From the IMG/VR virus record IMGVR_UViG_3300032046_000139, positions 1-31,182 of that record: DNA of 31,182 bases. One strand, given 5' to 3'. Origin of the DNA: a virus. The notes beneath the pieces were generated by a model. The model was not told the DNA's origin, did no database searches, and saw nothing but the letters and a program-made list of their open reading frames with translations. The position numbers were made by a program, and so were the translations under genes. Below, piece after piece: positions 5,366 through 31,182 of this stretch. Each line of letters opens with the position of its first letter. The first letter of the stretch is position 1.

Positions 5366-5791
5366 CTAAGGCGTGAACAAAACTATTGCAGAAAAGCGCA
5401 CGACCCCGCCGTAATAGAGTTTTCCTTGTGTGCGGATCTCGCCTGGACTAAAGAAGATTGGATTCACATCTTTGACGGTTCCATTCAGAGTTGAGTCGGC
5501 TATGATTGCGTCCATGACGTCGCCCATGGGTGAAAGGATGTCTGCGAACCAGTCGGAGGGCTCGGTTTCGCGGATCATAACTATTACGGAGAATGTGACT
5601 TTGCATTCAAGTCTCGTTCCGAGGGTTGCCAATGCGATATCTGTAGGCTCCGGATTGATTGTGGCCATAGGCAACTCTGTAACCTTGAACTGTTCGCCGA
5701 GGACCACGCGTTTGATTGAATCAACTGCCTCGAGGTCCACTTTGACCCGGTCAAATAAATTCTTGTAACTGGTATAGAATTTGTTGGTCAC
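5366..5791 (-). CDS. Tail terminator-like protein
   Basis: 141 aa, mixed alpha/beta. The N-terminal helix (YKNLFDRVKVDLEAVDSIKRV) is followed by strands and a C-terminal GGVVRFSAIVLF strand, the layout of small tail-terminator and neck proteins that cap the tail tube. It starts at GTG, overlapping the stop of the HK97-gp10-like gene as GTGA. The order connector, gp10-like, this protein, tail tube matches siphovirus maps. The function is inferred from this order. Confidence 0.75.
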   Translation of the reverse strand: MTNKFYTSYKNLFDRVKVDLEAVDSIKRVVLGEQFKVTELPMATINPEPTDIALATLGTRLECKVTFSVIVMIRETEPSDWFADILSPMGDVMDAIIADSTLNGTVKDVNPIFFSPGEIRTQGKLYYGGVVRFSAIVLFTP

Positions 5792-21076: not shown

Positions 21077-21256
21077 TTAACTTGTGTTTTGTGGAGATGA
21101 GGCTTTTAATGTTTTATCTCCTTTCCGTATGGTAGAAAGATAGTGAATACATGCCTCTTTCATGAAGTCTGTTCGCGTGATATGTAGTAGGGTTGCGGCG
21201 TTGTCGATGGTTTTTAACAGGTTTTCGTCAAAACAGCACTCAACACGACGTCTCAT
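21077..21256 (-). CDS. Ribbon-helix-helix regulator (59 aa)
   Basis: Only 59 aa. The N-terminus is a beta strand (RRRVECCFDENLLKTIDNA) followed by two helices (LLHITRTDFMKEACIHYLSTI), the CopG/Arc fold in which the paired strands read the DNA major groove. It stands between a low-complexity region on one side and a palindrome on the other, which suits a local repressor of the packaging operon. No ribosome-binding site is obvious before the ATG. Confidence 0.75.
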   Translation of the reverse strand: MRRRVECCFDENLLKTIDNAATLLHITRTDFMKEACIHYLSTIRKGDKTLKASSPQNTS

Positions 21257-21437
21257 TTAGTCATGATATCTCCGACTATTTTGACCTTGCCAAACCACAC
21301 CTTACCTTACCCGACCCCAACATACCGTACCGTTGCCCGACCTTACCTCACCAATCCACAGCTCACCAATCCACAGCAGACCTTACCGCACAGCACCTCG
21401 CTCAACCAAACCTTACAATTCCTAACCAAACCTCGCA
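21257..21437. repeat. Low-complexity CA-rich non-coding region with short repeats
   Basis: The plus strand is nearly free of G and full of CCTTACC/ACCAAACC-like words; CTCACCAATCCACAG occurs twice in tandem (21347-21361 and 21362-21376). The minus strand is correspondingly G/T-rich. A proline-rich reading frame crosses it, but this is composition. It lies between the RHH gene and the 178-aa gene, so it may be an untranslated leader, a regulator-binding array or a replication start. No function can be fixed from sequence. Confidence 0.6.
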
Positions 21438-21974
21438 TCACTCAGCTTTGAAATGAGTGACTATGAACCCGCCGAATCGAGGACGGTAATCTCCGAGCCC
21501 TACGTTATACCCCGCGTAGTCCAGAATCCTCTTGATCGTTTCGGAATTTATCTGCTCTTCCAAAACTTCAATGTCGAACTCTAGGTTCCAATCATCAAAC
21601 CGAGGTCGTATTCTCATTAGTCTTCCACGAGTCGCGGGAATGACGACGCTTCTTTTATCAGGTATCCAAGTTTGGTGCTTGTGAATGATAGCTTCTGGTG
21701 TGATGACTACACTGCTCTGTATGATGTCTTTGTAGGTTTTCTTTCCTTTTCCGCCGATCGTGAAGTTTGTAGCTGCCTTGACCATGCTTCTGAGAATATG
21801 CTCGGCAGGCTGATAGATGCGCCCATCTGGTAACTTGTATAGGCGTTCTTGGGGATCATCTGCCTTATGCGAACCCACGCGAGTTTTCACTTTGCTTTCG
21901 GCTTCGAACGTCTCATCTGGAAATCTGTTCTGTAATAAAGGTCTGATTCCTTGAATCTCACAATGAATCTTCAT
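21438..21974 (-). CDS. Conserved phage-type protein with a GxG...GG C-terminus, unknown
   Basis: 178 aa from the ATG at 21974, eight bases after GGGAGGTGA. The order of elements (EIQGIRPLLQNRF, LYKLPDGRIYQPAEHILRSM, RLMRIRPRFDDWNLEFDI, AGYNVGLGDYRPRFGGFIV) resembles a family I remember from many phage genomes as a hypothetical protein. The terminal glycine pattern recalls RAMP-type RNA-binding folds, which is only a hint. It sits with regulators and DNA-modifying genes, so an early nucleic-acid-related role is likely. Confidence 0.85.
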   Translation of the reverse strand: MKIHCEIQGIRPLLQNRFPDETFEAESKVKTRVGSHKADDPQERLYKLPDGRIYQPAEHILRSMVKAATNFTIGGKGKKTYKDIIQSSVVITPEAIIHKHQTWIPDKRSVVIPATRGRLMRIRPRFDDWNLEFDIEVLEEQINSETIKRILDYAGYNVGLGDYRPRFGGFIVTHFKAE

Positions 21975-22423: not shown

Positions 22424-22537
22424 TCAACATTGTTTCATGAACCTCCACACTTTTGGTCCAAGGTCTTCCGCCTCTTTCCTATGCACTTCACAGAACCATT
22501 CACACCTGTCATTTGAGAACCTTCCACAAATCCGCAT
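22424..22537 (-). CDS. Possible 37-aa zinc-binding micro-protein
   Basis: The frame ATG 22537 to TGA 22424 encodes MRICGRFSNDRCEWFCEVH... with a C-x7-C-x3-C-x2-H pattern and a helical tail ending VWRFMKQC. It overlaps the end of the RHH-zinc gene by 29 bases in another frame; AAGGA lies two bases before the ATG, closer than usual. The ending resembles the zinc end of the upstream protein. It may be a real mini-protein or the remnant of a duplicated C-terminus. Confidence 0.35.
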   Translation of the reverse strand: MRICGRFSNDRCEWFCEVHRKEAEDLGPKVWRFMKQC

Positions 22538-22904
22538 GGTCCTTGATGTCTTTAGCATGAATAGAACAGTAGCCATACTCTTCATTTCTAGGCACGTAAA
22601 ACGCAACACCAACAGCGTCACGCATACAATCTTTAAACCCGCAAATCTTACTTGGGCTATGATAAGCTTTGCCAATCTTCAAAATCGTGTCTAACCTTTG
22701 TTGAGGGTTACCAGGTTCATGAAGTCTAACATAATCTTGTGCGTAGTCAAGAACCCATGAACTAAAACTCTTACCATCCCTCTTGAGAATCTCTTGCAGA
22801 CTCTCATAGATTCCTCGGCGGTGTTTATTGATGTAGATTTGGACTATGCGGATATGCTTTTCATCAAAGTAGTTTCGTTTTCTTCCTCTTCTCGCTATAT
22901 ACAT
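22509..22904 (-). CDS. RHH-type protein with C-terminal zinc site
   Basis: 131 aa from the ATG at 22904; the longer open frame runs into a GA-rich microsatellite and is not believed. Residues 20-75 show an RHH-like strand and helices (RIVQIYINKHRRGIYESLQE, DGKSFSSWVLDYAQDYVRLH), followed by EPGNPQQRLD, common in archaeal relatives. The C-terminus has ICGFKDC ... YCSIH, a likely zinc site. Probably a DNA-binding regulator. Its ribosome-binding site must lie within the GA repeat. Confidence 0.75.
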   Translation of the reverse strand: MYIARRGRKRNYFDEKHIRIVQIYINKHRRGIYESLQEILKRDGKSFSSWVLDYAQDYVRLHEPGNPQQRLDTILKIGKAYHSPSKICGFKDCMRDAVGVAFYVPRNEEYGYCSIHAKDIKDHADLWKVLK

Positions 22905-22919
22905 ATCGCTATATACATA
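22892..22919. repeat. Tandem duplication of a 14-bp unit at a gene start
   Basis: TCGCTATATACATA is repeated exactly twice. On the minus strand each copy contains an ATG. The copy nearer the gene gives the 131-aa protein, while the other ATG stops after seven codons. The duplication therefore lies precisely over the translation start. Confidence 0.9.
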
Positions 22920-22986
22920 CTCTCTACTCTCTATACTCTCTCTATCTCTCTCTATCTCTCTGCTCTCTCTCTCCTCTCTCTCCCCT
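22920..22986. repeat. CT/GA microsatellite upstream of the RHH-zinc gene
   Basis: The plus strand is an almost pure run of CT with scattered A and G (CTCTCTCTATCTCTCTCTAT and similar); the minus strand reads GAGAGATAGAGAGA, which offers many GAGAG ribosome-binding words before the ATG at 22904. Such runs change length easily during replication. Confidence 0.9.
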
Positions 22987-23007
22987 ATCTCATCTGAACT
23001 CAAAAAC

Positions 23008-23256
23008 CTAAACACCCTCCGTTTTGGCTTCTTCAAATTCAGGCAAGACTTCTGCCTGTTCCTTATGTTTCTTGATGAAATCGAGTAATGCAATGAGAAA
23101 ACCTTGGCTGACCCGTTTACGCCTCAGTATCGTTGTGATACTGAAGTGTTCACCTTTGAAAATAGGAACTATCCATTCAGGCTCGTAGGTGATGTGATGA
23201 GGTTGCACCACATACGTCGACGGTTTCCTTCGCTTTCTTTTAGCGCGCACACTCAT
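23008..23256 (-). CDS. Small basic protein, unknown
   Basis: 82 aa from the ATG at 23256; a GTG three codons upstream is the alternative. The N-terminus is highly basic (RAKRKRRKPST), the centre has HHITYEPEWIVPIFKGEHFS, and the rest is a helix. It follows the stop of the upstream gene by one base. The basic tail could touch nucleic acid. Not recognised. Confidence 0.75.
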   Translation of the reverse strand: MSVRAKRKRRKPSTYVVQPHHITYEPEWIVPIFKGEHFSITTILRRKRVSQGFLIALLDFIKKHKEQAEVLPEFEEAKTEGV

Positions 23257-23856: not shown

Positions 23857-24477
23857 TCAAGTGTGGGCCTCCGTGAGTTTGTCATAGCATGCTTTGCCAA
23901 GGGGGACCGAGAGTGGGAGGGGAATTTTTGCCCGAAAGAAAGAACGCAATGGATTGAACGCGAAGACCGAGTTTAGGCGATCATGCGCTTTAGCACGGAC
24001 TGAACCTACGGGGAAATCTGTTTTTGACGGAAAGTTTGATTGCGGAAAGAGAAAGGGCGGTAATATTCCCCATAAATACCAAGGCTTGATGATTACTGCA
24101 GGCGGCCCGAGCAATGGTTCAATATGTTGCAGTGACCCTTGGACGTTTTCCAAGATCCAAAACTTCGGGTTTACTTCTCGAATTATCCTTATGCTTTCTC
24201 TGACAAGTTCCAGCCCTTTAGCAGGATCTGCAGATTTACGTTGGCCTCTGCTGACTGCAAGGCGGACTAATGTGCTGAATTCGGTGCACGGAGGCGATGC
24301 AGTAACAACGTCAAAAGCTTCATTGGGATGATAATCTTTAAGGTCCATTTTCACAAGTTTATATGGATATCCAATGTCAAGAATGTCCACTCCAGTACAA
24401 TCAAACCCTGCCCTGTAGAAGCCTATGCTCCATCCGCCTAAGCCGCAACAAAGGTCCAGCAACTTCGGTGTATCCAT
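23857..24477 (-). CDS. DNA (cytosine-5-)-methyltransferase
   Basis: 206 aa. Motif I LLDLCCGLGGWSIGFYRAGF (SAM binding) at 6-25, motif IV SPPCTEFS with the catalytic Cys64, motif VI WILENVQG with ENV at 110-112, and a C-terminal FRAKIPLPLS segment like motif X. The region between is short, so target recognition must be minimal; the protein is shorter than typical bacterial enzymes. No restriction endonuclease is next to it, so it is an orphan enzyme that probably protects viral DNA or affects regulation. It starts three bases after the stop of a Cys-rich mini-gene. Confidence 0.93.
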   Translation of the reverse strand: MDTPKLLDLCCGLGGWSIGFYRAGFDCTGVDILDIGYPYKLVKMDLKDYHPNEAFDVVTASPPCTEFSTLVRLAVSRGQRKSADPAKGLELVRESIRIIREVNPKFWILENVQGSLQHIEPLLGPPAVIIKPWYLWGILPPFLFPQSNFPSKTDFPVGSVRAKAHDRLNSVFAFNPLRSFFRAKIPLPLSVPLGKACYDKLTEAHT

Positions 24478-25881: not shown

Positions 25882-26189
25882 ATTTCGATCACTCCTTGTT
25901 GACTGGGAGTTTGAACTTGACGTCCACAGTGCGGACAGAAGGGTTTACGATGCAAACACCAGTCGTCTCCGAAACAGCTTATGTCCTGTTCGAAATTTGC
26001 TTCTGTCCCATCGAAACGAGCATAACATTCTTGACAGTCATACCAGGTTTCGCGTGCCGTCAACAAACAACCATGATGATAGAGCCGGCCGTCTTTGTCT
26101 TGGTCGATGTTTCTGAGGATCGGTTCGTTGCACCATGTGCAGATTCGTGCCTGCGTAGGAATGCTCTCATATAGACGGCGGAGATTCAA
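25878..26189 (-). CDS. Multi-CxxC zinc-finger protein
   Basis: 103 aa. Starts at TTG 26189, seven bases after GGAGG, in a TTGA overlap with the ParB-like stop. Cys/His clusters are ICTWC, YHHGC, YDCQEC, CFGDDWCLH and FCPHCG, enough for two to three zinc sites, the first resembling LIM-type fingers. It may act as a protein adaptor or nucleic-acid binder. No specific family assigned. Confidence 0.75.
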   Translation of the reverse strand: MNLRRLYESIPTQARICTWCNEPILRNIDQDKDGRLYHHGCLLTARETWYDCQECYARFDGTEANFEQDISCFGDDWCLHRKPFCPHCGRQVQTPSQQGVIEI

Positions 26190-27580
26190 TATTTCGCCTC
26201 CAAGCAATGCTCAATTTTGCCGTCTGCTCGTTTCACGTGAAGAATCTGGAATTTGAGTTGGCATTCGGGGCAGCAAAATTCGAAGCCAGTGTCAATCTTC
26301 TCGTCTTTGACATGAGGGCTGGGAATAGATTCCTTGTTGGGTTCATGCGCTTTCGAAATGGATTCCGTGTCTTTTTCAGGAATGGTCTCAATGCCGTCTG
26401 CATACAAGGGGCCTTCATCCTCTTCTTCACTTTCACCCGCCCCCTCGGATGGGCCTTCAGCAAACCTTTCTTTCACAGCGGTTTCCAACACTTCTTTCCC
26501 GGCAGGAGTATCCAAGAGCTCGCGGGCTTTGCCAACTGTCATATCTTGAGGTTTCACAGTTCCGATCGGAGGCGCTTTCTCTTCAGGATGAACGATGCTG
26601 TGGATTTCCCGGGCAGAAGGCACTTCCCCAGTCTTATTGATTTCATCAATGATTTCCTGTTTCTTTGCTTCTGGAGCAGCGAGGATCTCACGAGCCTGAC
26701 GCTCAGTAAACTCCCCACTCTCCATTGTACCCCGGGGTACAATGTTATCAAGGTTCAACATGTCGAGGTGACGTGTAACCCAGTTATGTTCCTTGCCAAA
26801 AACGTCGGCAAGATTCGCTTGCGTGGGATAGGTTTTCGGATACTTGTCCATTAAATGTTTCAGGGCTTTTGCAAGATCATAATCTGACATATCCTTGCGA
26901 GCCACATTCTCCATCAGTCTGATCCGGTCAAACTCTTCGTCAGCAAACTCCTTCACGATCACTGGAACGACGCCGAGACCCATTTTCCTCGCAGCTAAAA
27001 GCCTACGTTCCCCGCAACCAACTTCGATGTAACCGGATGATGCTGGTGCTGGCCTACAGACCAACGGCTCTAGAATAATGGCGATTTCATGTCCAGCTTT
27101 AGTTGTTGCAATCTGCTCGATAAACTCTTCAATACCATCCTCAATGTTCGACCGAAATTTGTGGACAGGTGATAATATGTTGCAGATAGCAAACTTGGCG
27201 TAGTAACCAGGCTTTATCGGGATAGGGCCGAGGTCTAGTGGCTTGCTTTTGTCGTCTTTCACAACGTTAGGAGTAACTGCTGTACCCGCTGTAACTGGTG
27301 TAGACGTGCCCTGAGGCGTAACGCCGCCCTTCTTTGCAAACGGTCCAGGCACCGCCCAAGCCTTGGCACCCTGCAAATAGTCCTGGCCACCCAAGTCCTT
27401 CACAAGTCTACACATGGCCCTGAACTGAAATTTGTCTAGGAATTGCTTCGACTTCAAGACAGCATAGAAAAACCCGTCTTTCCGCTCTTCAATGTCAAAG
27501 AGTTGTTCGACAATCTCGGTCTTGATGGTGAGGGTGTCCGCGATTTTCTTAGCGAAATCGATCGGAAGTTTGAGGCTCAC
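26186..27580 (-). CDS. ParB-like nuclease/partition protein with zinc end
   Basis: 464 aa. Residues 1-85 carry an extra N-terminal domain; 115-210 the ParB N-terminal fold with GYIEVGCGERRLLAARKMG (GERR at 190-193) and VPVIVKEF; 223-240 MENVARKDMSDYDLAKAL; 250-278 a helix-turn-helix (TQANLADVFGKEHNWVTRHL). The rest is acidic and disordered, ending in CCPECQLKF, a half zinc ribbon. The GTG start overlaps the preceding stop as GTGA, seven bases from GGAGG. No ParA partner is present, so it may be a CTP-dependent clamp for regulation or a recruiter for host partitioning. Confidence 0.88.
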   Translation of the reverse strand: MSLKLPIDFAKKIADTLTIKTEIVEQLFDIEERKDGFFYAVLKSKQFLDKFQFRAMCRLVKDLGGQDYLQGAKAWAVPGPFAKKGGVTPQGTSTPVTAGTAVTPNVVKDDKSKPLDLGPIPIKPGYYAKFAICNILSPVHKFRSNIEDGIEEFIEQIATTKAGHEIAIILEPLVCRPAPASSGYIEVGCGERRLLAARKMGLGVVPVIVKEFADEEFDRIRLMENVARKDMSDYDLAKALKHLMDKYPKTYPTQANLADVFGKEHNWVTRHLDMLNLDNIVPRGTMESGEFTERQAREILAAPEAKKQEIIDEINKTGEVPSAREIHSIVHPEEKAPPIGTVKPQDMTVGKARELLDTPAGKEVLETAVKERFAEGPSEGAGESEEEDEGPLYADGIETIPEKDTESISKAHEPNKESIPSPHVKDEKIDTGFEFCCPECQLKFQILHVKRADGKIEHCLEAKY

Positions 27581-27944: not shown

Positions 27945-28081
27945 GTCGAAGCCTCCGGCTTCTTCGATTTCTCCAACACTTTCAAGTGGATCTCATGGAT
28001 CACTTCGAAGAATTCACGTCGAAGCTTGGCAACCTCGTCATGCGATCGACGACCAGAAACCAAAACTAAGCCCCCTGCCAT
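27941..28081 (-). CDS. 46-aa helical mini-protein
   Basis: 46 aa, a Gly-rich start and then a long charged helix (HDEVAKLRREFFEVIHEIHL). Its ATG lies within the end of the RHH gene (16-base overlap), and its stop overlaps the next gene. The coding pattern is plausible only because of the interlocked arrangement. Not recognised. Confidence 0.5.
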   Translation of the reverse strand: MAGGLVLVSGRRSHDEVAKLRREFFEVIHEIHLKVLEKSKKPEAST

Positions 28082-28218
28082 TCTTCCATACGACGACGAG
28101 CAGCTTCACTCAGGAACTCCGGAACCCCGCGGTAGCGTTTGTCCTTTTTCAGGTGCTCCTCAATAGCCCCTATGAGTTCGGCTCTGAGGCTTACACTTCT
28201 GAATTTCGGTTTCCCCAT
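28066..28218 (-). CDS. Ribbon-helix-helix regulator (50 aa)
   Basis: Only 50 aa: strand KFRSVSLRAELIGAIEEHL followed by helices with GVPEFLSEAARRRMEEW, a CopG/ParD-type fold. It is the first leftward gene from the AT-rich intergenic region, divergent from a second RHH gene with related sequence order (YRTVSMKTEFIDYLEEFI ... FLEDASRRRLEEL). Likely represses its own and/or the opposite promoter and could decide between lysogeny and the lytic cycle. Confidence 0.75.
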   Translation of the reverse strand: MGKPKFRSVSLRAELIGAIEEHLKKDKRYRGVPEFLSEAARRRMEEWQGA

Positions 28219-28356
28219 AGTTCAAACATCCTTTAAAGTTAATTCATTCCTAAGGGATAGAAAGACTATTTAAGATTTTAGTTTAAAATTATGTTAACTT
28301 TGAACTATCGGAATAACATATTTATACTTTAATAATGCTTTAATTATTGGGAGATA
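28219..28356. promoter_or_regulatory. Divergent promoter/operator region
   Basis: 138 bp, strongly AT-rich. Rightward, TTTATACT (28321-28328) is a TATA-like box about 32 bases from the ATG, so the message would have almost no leader. Leftward TATA-like AT stretches lie near 28270-28290. Inverted words are AGTTCAAAC (28219-28227) and AAAGTTAA (28235-28242), matched by GTTAACTTTGAACT (28293-28306). Such arrays suit RHH dimers bound to both sides. Confidence 0.7.
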
Positions 28357-28746
28357 ATGAGCACCAAACCACCCTACCGCACGGTCAGCATGAAAACAGA
28401 GTTCATCGACTACCTAGAAGAATTCATCAAGACCAATACGCAATACGGCTATCGTAGTCTTGCACAGTTCCTTGAAGATGCAAGCCGTAGAAGACTGGAA
28501 GAATTGAAAGCTGCAGAAAAAGAGTTACCTCGAATGGAACAGATAAATTGTGATGAAAATGGCTGCAAAATCTTGGATCGCAAACTTCATAGAGTAGCCG
28601 ACATTGCCCTGAAGCCTTCCGGGATCGACTGTAGCATAGACCGGACTGACAGTTGCGACCATGTCAAGTTTGCTTTGGCACAACGGGACATCCGAGGCAT
28701 AATAGCCAAGAAACGAAAGGAAGGTTGGAAGCTGCCAGACGTCTAA
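28357..28746 (+). CDS. RHH regulator with archaeal CxHV-type C-terminus
   Basis: 129 aa. Residues 6-48 are a ribbon-helix-helix (YRTVSMKTEFIDYLEEFI, YRSLAQFLEDASRRRLEEL). The rest has CDENGCKILDRKLHR, then GIDCS and SCDHVKFALAQRDI, ending KKRKEGWKLPDV, a layout I associate with archaeal RHH proteins that carry a small zinc-like domain ending in a Gly-Trp motif. ATG with GGAG three bases upstream. It opens the rightward operon and probably regulates the divergent region. Confidence 0.85.
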   Translation: MSTKPPYRTVSMKTEFIDYLEEFIKTNTQYGYRSLAQFLEDASRRRLEELKAAEKELPRMEQINCDENGCKILDRKLHRVADIALKPSGIDCSIDRTDSCDHVKFALAQRDIRGIIAKKRKEGWKLPDV

Positions 28747-28941: not shown

Positions 28942-29691
28942 ATGAACAAACAAATGGTACGTACGATCATTCTGGCGCTGGTTTTACTGTGCACATTGTC
29001 AACCAGAGTTTCGGCCCTAGACATAGATTTCCTCACAACAAGTGAAGTTATAGATACGCTCGGATATCTCCATGTTTTCGGAGAAGTTCAGAATAATGGA
29101 AGTCAAACCCTAAAATATGTGGAAATCGTGGGCACCTTCTACAATGCTGGTCATGTCGTTATCGAGACCGAATATACTTTTACTCTACTCGATCAGCTTG
29201 AACCAACACAAAAGAGCCCCTTCGACCTCTTCATAATGAACACAAACACTTCAGCTGACGTGACGTCGTATAAACTGACCGTAACAGGCAGTGAGGCGAA
29301 CCCCAAACCGCGAGGCCTACAAATCTTATCCCATAGTAGCTCGATCGATCAGCTTGATTACCTGGAGATTGTTGGTGAGATCCAAAACCTGCAGAATAAT
29401 TCAGCTTCTTATGTCGAAGTCATCGGAACCTTCTATGACCAAAATGGCACCGTCATCGGTTGTGACTACACCTTCACGGATCCAACCGACCTGGCAGGCG
29501 GCCAAACAGGACCTTTCAAAATCGTATTCATGTACGAGGCGCTCTCTAGTCTCGTTTCATCCTATACACTGACGGCTCAATCAAACGAATACTCGATGAT
29601 CCCAGAATTCCCGCTAGGGCCCGTTTTCCTGCTGCTGGCCACAACCCTTTTCATTACCATTCTCACACGACGAATACGAGTCAGACCTTGA
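28942..29691 (+). CDS. Secreted double-FxLYD surface protein with PEF-type anchor
   Basis: 249 aa. Residues 1-25 are a signal peptide (TIILALVLLCTLSTRVSA). Two FxLYD domains follow, about 26-120 and 125-215, each with a GYLHVFGEVQNNG or DYLEIVGEIQNLQ core and a matching YVE strand. The C-terminus (IPEFPLGPVFLLLATTLFIT, then Arg residues) is a PEF-type motif, membrane helix and basic stop, as in archaeal surface proteins processed or anchored at the membrane. No virion role is evident; it should appear on the host cell, so lysogenic conversion or superinfection exclusion is a reasonable inference. Confidence 0.85.
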   Translation: MNKQMVRTIILALVLLCTLSTRVSALDIDFLTTSEVIDTLGYLHVFGEVQNNGSQTLKYVEIVGTFYNAGHVVIETEYTFTLLDQLEPTQKSPFDLFIMNTNTSADVTSYKLTVTGSEANPKPRGLQILSHSSSIDQLDYLEIVGEIQNLQNNSASYVEVIGTFYDQNGTVIGCDYTFTDPTDLAGGQTGPFKIVFMYEALSSLVSSYTLTAQSNEYSMIPEFPLGPVFLLLATTLFITILTRRIRVRP

Positions 29692-30874
29692 TTTTTCCTT
29701 CTCTATAATCTGCAATAAGCTCTCTCATCGCTTCAATCTCATCATCGTTCAATCCTTCATGCTCTTGTCCCGGTGGTTTTCCAGTGTAAATGTTGATGTA
29801 AGGCTCCAATTTCGCGTATTCCCGTTCAACCGCGTCCGCATGAGTAAACGGCGCCTGATCATACGTGCCCCCCGGAATATCCAGTTGATCAAGCTCTTCC
29901 TTGTCAACAGAATGACCCATCATAAACCGCACGTAATCCTTGCTTATGCCTCGGTCCGGGGGACTGGCTTCTGACTCGAAAATCTTGCGGAACATGTGAA
30001 AAATCACGGTGTAAGGCCCCTTGTAAACGTCGTGCCTTTCCAAACGTTCTCTGAAGGGACTTCTCCAGGCTTCCGGCGTCAACTTCGACCCGTCACGTTT
30101 AATGAACAGGTAGGGGCTCTTTTTGCCGTTGAGCCATTTCCTCCGGAGGGGCAGCCACTCTTGAATCTCCGTTATCGCGTCAAGCGAACAGAAAGTGTAG
30201 TATCGGAAATCATTGCCCTTGCGCCCATCAAAATTAAACCGGATCCGTTTCCTGCCCTGACTGATCATTCGCGCTATGTATTCGTACTGATCATTAATGT
30301 CGTTGAGGACCTGCATTATGCTCTGCCCCGTCTGCAACCCTAACATGCAGATTGCGCGGTCACGCTTATTCAATGCACCAATGACTTTCTTAGCTAAACC
30401 AACAGTGTAGGGATCCGGCCGATATTTCCGGTGCTTCTTCACGCCATAAAACCCGCGCGCGCTAGTCAACTCAACTTCATGAGCCTTACAGAACAAATTT
30501 ACGCTCTTGAGCATGGCGCCATAAAGCAGAGCGTGAGATTTGCCTTTTAAATCAGGGTTATCCCGGGTGAACTCCAAAACAAGATTCCGCCCCCAACCCC
30601 GATCCTCAACAACCCTGCTCAACCGCTTCTCACACAACACCTGCAAAAACTCACTCGGCTTCATCACCAAACCCTTACGGATCTGCAACCACTTGAAAAA
30701 CATGCATAAATACCGACTGAAACCGCGTTTGGTCGATTCAGCATACTTGCCCAAAAACTGCTTCACACACAAATTAGCAGCAACAAACGCGTCAACCTCA
30801 ACCCCCGAAACACCATAATCATAACGCCGCCGCCAATCCACAACCCTACACCCAAAAACAGAGGAACACCCCAC
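29681..30874 (-). CDS. int: Tyrosine recombinase/integrase
   Basis: 397 aa from the outermost start (GTG 30874). A SAM-like N-terminal domain reaches about residue 160 and the catalytic domain follows. Present: HMFRK (the H-x-x-R box), MGHS after it, and EREYAKLEPY with the likely nucleophile Tyr. The usual first Arg (TGLR-type motif) is not seen; the place reads LGLQTGQSIMQVL. A TATA-like box abuts the GTG, so the true start may be a GTG at 30841. It converges with the rightward operon by 11 bases. Should insert the genome into and excise it from host DNA; the missing Arg leaves activity unsure. Confidence 0.85.
   Translation of the reverse strand: MGCSSVFGCRVVDWRRRYDYGVSGVEVDAFVAANLCVKQFLGKYAESTKRGFSRYLCMFFKWLQIRKGLVMKPSEFLQVLCEKRLSRVVEDRGWGRNLVLEFTRDNPDLKGKSHALLYGAMLKSVNLFCKAHEVELTSARGFYGVKKHRKYRPDPYTVGLAKKVIGALNKRDRAICMLGLQTGQSIMQVLNDINDQYEYIARMISQGRKRIRFNFDGRKGNDFRYYTFCSLDAITEIQEWLPLRRKWLNGKKSPYLFIKRDGSKLTPEAWRSPFRERLERHDVYKGPYTVIFHMFRKIFESEASPPDRGISKDYVRFMMGHSVDKEELDQLDIPGGTYDQAPFTHADAVEREYAKLEPYINIYTGKPPGQEHEGLNDDEIEAMRELIADYREGKIKV
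29692..29705 (+). terminator. T-rich terminator of the rightward operon
   Basis: Directly after the TGA at 29689-29691 comes ATTTTTCCTTCTCT, a T-rich stretch on the plus strand that fits an archaeal intrinsic terminator. It lies within the end of the convergent integrase gene. Confidence 0.45.
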
Positions 30875-31055: not shown

Positions 31056-31182
31056 AGAGGCTGAAAGAAAAAAGAAGGGGTCTAGGGTCCTTATGTAGTT
31101 TTAGGCGCCAGTTTCAAGAGGACCCTTCTCATGACGTCTATGACAAACAGCAACACAACGGCATACTGTACGGGAATGAACT

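Follow-up and report, generated by a model that had tools for sequence, protein, structure and literature searches.

The SSV1 protein F55 is a proven archaeal lysogeny regulator that maintains lysogeny (PMC9608457), holding the virus dormant by covering start sites and BRE elements (PMC9608457, PMC5569661). In the archaeal virus AFV6, the stretch that separates the promoter of the RHH protein AvtR (gp29) from the promoter of a second RHH gene, gp30, is under AvtR control (PMC5569661), and in haloarchaeal tailed viruses lysogeny is under repressor-operator control through phiCh1 Rep and the phiH1 repressor (PMC8371274). Among bacterial phages, P22 has two divergent RHH paralogues in its immI locus, mnt and arc, which flank a common promoter region; one is short, at 53 aa, and the other, at 83 aa, is extended at its C terminus. 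Their products regulate an antirepressor, in a role subordinate to that of the C2 repressor; phiCh1 Rep and the phiH1 repressor are winged-helix proteins. Outside Sulfolobus and the haloarchaea, almost nothing is known of how lysis and lysogeny are controlled in archaea, and the Bathyarchaeia virus literature that we searched makes no mention of RHH switches.

Here, we describe a pair of divergent RHH genes in IMG/VR record IMGVR_UViG_3300032046_000139, which we analyzed over its whole length of 31,182 bases (the window). Because its ends carry an exact 127-base direct repeat (1-127 = 31056-31182), the record represents a complete virus genome of 31,055 bp. Its terminase shares 51% identity with the terminases of two methanogen viruses, psiM2 and psiM100, so that this is a tailed virus, probably archaeal, with a host that is probably an archaeon. 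All major ORFs between 28218 and 36 run leftward, and only the transcript of the larger RHH gene runs rightward. The first-pass annotation had reported a 50-aa and a 129-aa gene diverging across 138 AT-rich bases, and the ORFs, their lengths and the gap are as it described (Table 1); we refer to the two genes as RHH1 and RHH2. Its account of the flanks also stands, since the leftward side leads, past genes of 46, 45 and 106 aa, to a ParB-like protein with ParB_N/HTH_ParB and a C5 methyltransferase, and the rightward side to a surface protein operon encoding a membrane-type and a secreted/anchored protein.

Table 1. Features of the divergent RHH locus and its surroundings (positions in the window)
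Feature	Position	Strand	Remark
C5-type DNA methyltransferase, leftward block	23857..24477	-	
ParB-like protein, leftward block	26186..27580	-	ParB_N/HTH_ParB
RHH1, 50-aa RHH-only protein, first gene of leftward block	28066..28218	-	Proposed Cro-like (lytic-side) repressor
Candidate operator ATAGTTCAAA	28217..28226	+	Over RHH1 start codon; weak statistics
Shared control region, 138 bp	28219..28356	.	Between RHH1 and RHH2
Leftward core promoter GACTATTTAAGATTT, BRE/TATA-like AAATCTTAAATAGTC	28264..28278	-	Shorter matches in L003, L012
Candidate degenerate third site AGTTTAAA	28280..28287	+	
Candidate operator, inverted copy TTTGAACTAT	28299..28308	-	Immediately upstream of RHH2 core promoter; weak statistics
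Rightward BRE/TATA-like GGAATAACATATTTATAC	28310..28327	+	Similar (G)GAATAACGCATAAAT in L013, L015
RHH2, 129 aa: N-terminal RHH (1-56), conserved C-terminal domain (58-129)	28357..28746	+	Proposed lysogeny repressor
Predicted membrane protein, 53 aa	28765..28926	+	18 nt past RHH2; same transcript likely
Predicted secreted/anchored protein, 249 aa	28942..29691	+	Signal peptide, two repeats, C-terminal IPEFP-type anchor; candidate lysogenic cargo
Tyrosine integrase	29681..30874	-	Convergent with RHH2 operon

Two further stretches of the leftward block deserve mention. A third RHH gene of 59 aa (21077-21256, - strand) has just upstream of it about 180 noncoding bases (21270-21450) that are rich in ACCTTACC/CTCACCAATCCACAG repeats and have a G-poor strand; together with the ParB-like protein, this gene and repeat stretch might form a partition locus or a replication origin. 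Within a 194-aa ORF (22509-23093) lies a 70-bp CT-rich microsatellite (22920-22991) encoding charged repeats, EREERESREIERDRE, possibly a contingency sequence or a low-complexity linker.

RHH1 and RHH2 are paralogues, with 44% identity over 48-50 aa, and both match phrog_38461, a family of unknown function (E 7e-4 and 2e-6). Neither window protein reached a Pfam model because both are too diverged; RHH_1, RHH_8 and NikR models are matched by other members of their family. A profile of the small-protein (RHH1) family matches NikR RHH domains (E 1.5e-5), and with most NikR chains, which also have a C-terminal nickel-binding ACT domain, the match covers the RHH part only. In an AlphaFold model of RHH2 (mean pLDDT 90), all 12 of the top 12 structural matches to residues 3-60 are solved RHH proteins (Z 5.0-5.8), namely the RHH domains of ParB(pCXC100), ParD/PrpA, HicB, NikR and TraM. 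The strand and two helices of an RHH transcription factor, related to solved RHH proteins, are thereby identified, and the earlier assignment of both proteins to this class is borne out by the phrog_38461 matches, their mutual identity, the NikR profile match and the structural neighbors of RHH2.

Both RHH domains also resemble F55 of SSV1, which scored 62 and 83 against them (shuffled means 21, sd 4; z 9.9 and 15.2). F55 also matches locus L007 (43% identity, E 7e-5), and the F55-type half of the RHH set, including both window domains, is homologous to it. The F55 gene, known from experiment, lies at 5510-5677 of NC_001338.1, the public record searched, which annotates no CDS for it.

A Cro/CI-style choice made with RHH proteins, as the first-pass annotation proposed, predicts conserved divergence, one DNA specificity shared by the two proteins and operators specific to each virus. 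We scanned IMG/VR with RHH2, the integrase and RHH1 (L-numbers label the loci found) and identified 16 virus groups in which a small RHH gene diverges from a second RHH gene across a shared control region (relatives L003-L008, L010, L012, L013, L015, L035, L036/L037 and L039-L043). The second gene carries an RHH2-type C-terminal domain in 15 of the 16, the exception being L012, and the gap between the genes in the relatives is about 100-190 bp (start codons of some relatives were picked by eye). The cleanest test of the pairing was a search with RHH1 only, using a three-sequence alignment as the query: it returned 10 loci, all 10 with a divergent RHH2 that includes the C-terminal domain. A viral scan with the single RHH1 protein found nothing. 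Two scans of the genome collection, with RHH2 profiles and narrow patterns, gave no confirmed integrated copy, and the plasmid collection gave no match.

In most relatives, an integrase adjoins the pair. L007 and L008 have a different integrase type and different early genes, and packaging genes lie near the pair in L041-L043; these differing viral backbones argue that the pair is a module and is not hitch-hiking. The pair is not universal: RHH2 stands without a small partner in L026, and a single RHH gene is all that L014 and L029 have. In the early blocks of L003 (4033-4860) and L005 (4201-5061), we also noted proteins that carry a variable number of long WASVRDSV-type repeats.

The two RHH domains of a pair change type together, and the C-terminal domain stays. 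Between the window and L003, the C-terminal domains are 58% identical and the RHH domains are unalignable (score 23). Over 16 viruses, the summed similarity between the small RHH proteins and their own partners is 1640, versus a permuted mean of 848 (sd 123), and none of 100,000 random re-pairings was as good as the real one. The excess persists inside the F55-like type alone (1046 versus 777, sd 56), inside the other RHH type (p 0.003) and with one virus kept per close group (p 3e-4). In the tree, small and large RHH domains are sisters in L003, L007, L010, L012 and L036. Pair members also agree closely in the strand residues predicted to contact bases (register inferred from CopG-like RHH proteins), and the third predicted contact position is identical in all 10 F55-type pairs, including an unusual K in L010 and T in L041. 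Such joint change would follow if both proteins must read the same DNA or if they must form mixed dimers, and either fits.

The gaps of the relatives bear on this choice. Several contain short repeated words: TCGCAC in L003 (6 of 8 copies in the locus), TGTAACA in L012 (3 of 3), TGCAGTAA in L035 (3 of 3), repeated CATTAC/ATTACG in L010 and TATGCC in L036 (3 of 13). In L003, L010, L012 and L035, the gap holds at least half of the copies that the locus contains. By dinucleotide shuffling, p <= 0.005 is reached by 5 of 16 gaps, and p <= 0.01 by 2-3% of control windows (combined Fisher p 4e-7). The repeated words stand near both gene starts and change with RHH type, which points to a shared DNA specificity. 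Matched RHH domains together with virus-specific gap repeats are the pattern of an immunity region.

RHH1 could instead be a protein antagonist that acts through mixed dimers with RHH2, with no competition for operators. RHH domains dimerize through a shared beta ribbon, and the co-variation within each virus extends to positions that do not face DNA, both as this mechanism would have it; the repeats near both starts that change with RHH type argue against it, and we consider it unlikely. The mixed-dimer and shared-operator mechanisms are not mutually exclusive.

In the window gap itself, AGTTCAAA occurs at 28219 (+) and 28299-28306 (-), within an inverted repeat of 10 nt that is exact (ATAGTTCAAA/TTTGAACTAT). 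The inverted pair has p = 0.033 against 300 shuffles, and in the general repeat test this gap is not above chance (p 0.3-0.5; 0.46 by dinucleotide shuffle). The form AGTT[CT]AAA, a degenerate version picked after viewing the sequence, occurs six times in 31 kb, three of them in the gap. These inverted-repeat and AGTT[CT]AAA sites are plausible candidate operators. Of the opposed half-sites in the first-pass annotation, then, the AGTTCAAA pair is present, with weak statistics, and GTTAAC falls away as a separate half-site: its one copy in the gap is a self-palindrome, so there is no repeated half-site.

The TATA-like boxes that had been noted are present in both directions, and the core promoters look archaeal in type. 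A scan for bacterial sigma-70 promoters was not above shuffles, and that model is inapplicable to archaea. The leftward core promoter GACTATTTAAGATTT has a match of 15 identical nt in L010, similarly placed, and the L010 RHH domains belong to another subtype.

The second domain of RHH2 spans about 70 residues, with invariant C92, C100, H102 and GWK. It has no convincing Pfam or NCBIfam match, Foldseek against the PDB and viral models gave nothing significant, and structural matches to residues 58-124 all have Z of about 3 or less. In the Nitrososphaera provirus Pro-Nvie1 (L033, 1824-2204), an unannotated protein in the host flank, at the provirus/host junction, combines an RHH-like N terminus with an RHH2-type C-terminal domain; an archaeal cellular origin may therefore apply to this architecture.

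Taken together, we put at roughly three in four the probability that a temperate tailed virus, probably archaeal, has its immunity region here, built as a two-repressor switch of RHH paralogues. The proposed Cro/CI-style choice gains support from conserved divergence, matched domains and F55 homology, and from virus-specific operators in part of the 16 groups. RHH2 would be made in the dormant state, together on one transcript with the membrane/surface cargo, and would bind sites in the 138-bp gap and shut the leftward promoter. That promoter would serve RHH1 and then the ParB-like, methyltransferase, packaging and structural genes. During productive growth, RHH1 would bind the same sites and shut RHH2. 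We infer this division of roles, the occupancy of the operators and the part played in lysis-lysogeny: RHH2 would be the lysogeny repressor by analogy with F55, given its extra domain and tight cargo linkage, and RHH1 the Cro-like partner, by analogy, as it heads the lytic block.

The RHH pair might also be a secondary immunity locus like P22 immI, in which the two proteins control each other and an accessory module (the surface cargo or an early gene) and an unrecognized repressor elsewhere decides lysogeny. The arrangement of mnt and arc is the precedent, and the third RHH gene in the window fits. However, the small gene of the window heads the whole leftward block, the pair sits beside an integrase, and among the major ORFs, all leftward from 28218 onward, no second divergent regulator pair is seen. 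Nor does an antirepressor-like gene follow the small gene, as family scans matched none of the 46-aa, 106-aa and ParB-like proteins to an antirepressor family. We therefore regard such a secondary role as distinctly improbable.

The cargo after RHH2 differs among viruses and is often a membrane or surface protein, as in the window, L004, L005, L012, L013 and L041. It could have a role at the host surface or, as a guess, in superinfection exclusion. A C-terminal anchor of (IP)EFP type recurs on different surface proteins near the integrase, in an equivalent place (window 28942-29691; L004 6226-6708; L012 8311-9558; L014 9175-9648; L029 589-972). RHH proteins often autoregulate, and with RHH2 so tightly linked to variable membrane/surface genes, the pair could be cargo autoregulators of an Aca or toxin-antitoxin kind that take no part in lysogeny. 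This would leave unexplained both the second divergent RHH gene heading the opposite block and the joint change of the two RHH domains, and the cargo scanned against Pfam contains no toxin family; we judge it very improbable. That two unrelated RHH genes diverge by accident, common as such genes are in archaeal viruses, is ruled out by the conservation of the pair, with a partner at every locus of the RHH1-only search and no re-pairing matching the real one.

If the two-repressor switch is real, its co-varying DNA-binding domains would make operators, immunity groups and temperate lifestyle predictable from sequence for many uncultured viruses. A broader proposal, tentative and more doubtful than the switch, is that of a widespread archaeal-virus immunity system in which a conserved sensor/oligomerization domain (C-x7-C-x-H with a GWK tail) carries RHH reading heads that can be exchanged, each swap taking the small RHH antagonist and the operators along. 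If true, heteroimmunity groups among archaeal tailed viruses would be defined by this system, and the Cys/His domain would be its induction sensor.

Several elements of the switch are already known: divergent RHH paralogues from P22 mnt/arc, an RHH pair from AFV6, an RHH lysogeny repressor from SSV1 and repressor-operator control of lysogeny from phiCh1. New here are the RHH pair in many viruses, the jointly exchanged reading heads and the conserved C-terminal domain, a combination not described in the literature searched. Like the window, SSV1 has its F55 gene divergent from an early transcript, and F55 has sites in its own promoter; it differs in being a single 55-aa RHH protein without a divergent RHH partner across the control region and without a C-terminal domain. 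Its site, a tandem ATAGATAGAGT, is absent from the window gap (28219-28356), and the relatives have other sites. Dormant-state expression and RadA-linked release on DNA damage are traits of F55-type regulators. AvtR of AFV6 differs in having two fused RHH motifs in a monomer and in belonging to a filamentous virus, with no integrase or lysogeny role described (PMC5569661), and phiCh1 and phiH1 have a repressor that is not RHH and no RHH pair. P22 immI shares with the window a short and a long RHH paralogue diverging from a common control region (~90 bp in P22), but it belongs to a bacterial phage and has an antirepressor gene after the short RHH gene, for which the family scans gave no counterpart in the window; the switch would be a second, independent case, besides Mnt/Arc, of RHH proteins as opposed regulators, and no Arc or Mnt chain was among the matches of our profile searches. 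Lambda CI and Cro are helix-turn-helix proteins acting at bacterial promoters and share no homology with the RHH fold of the window. The likeness to lambda would instead be one of logic: divergent regulators with matched DNA-binding domains on operators proposed to be shared, an integrase nearby, putatively exchangeable immunity regions and a candidate co-transcribed lysogenic cargo, which after RHH2 occupies the place where lambda has rex.
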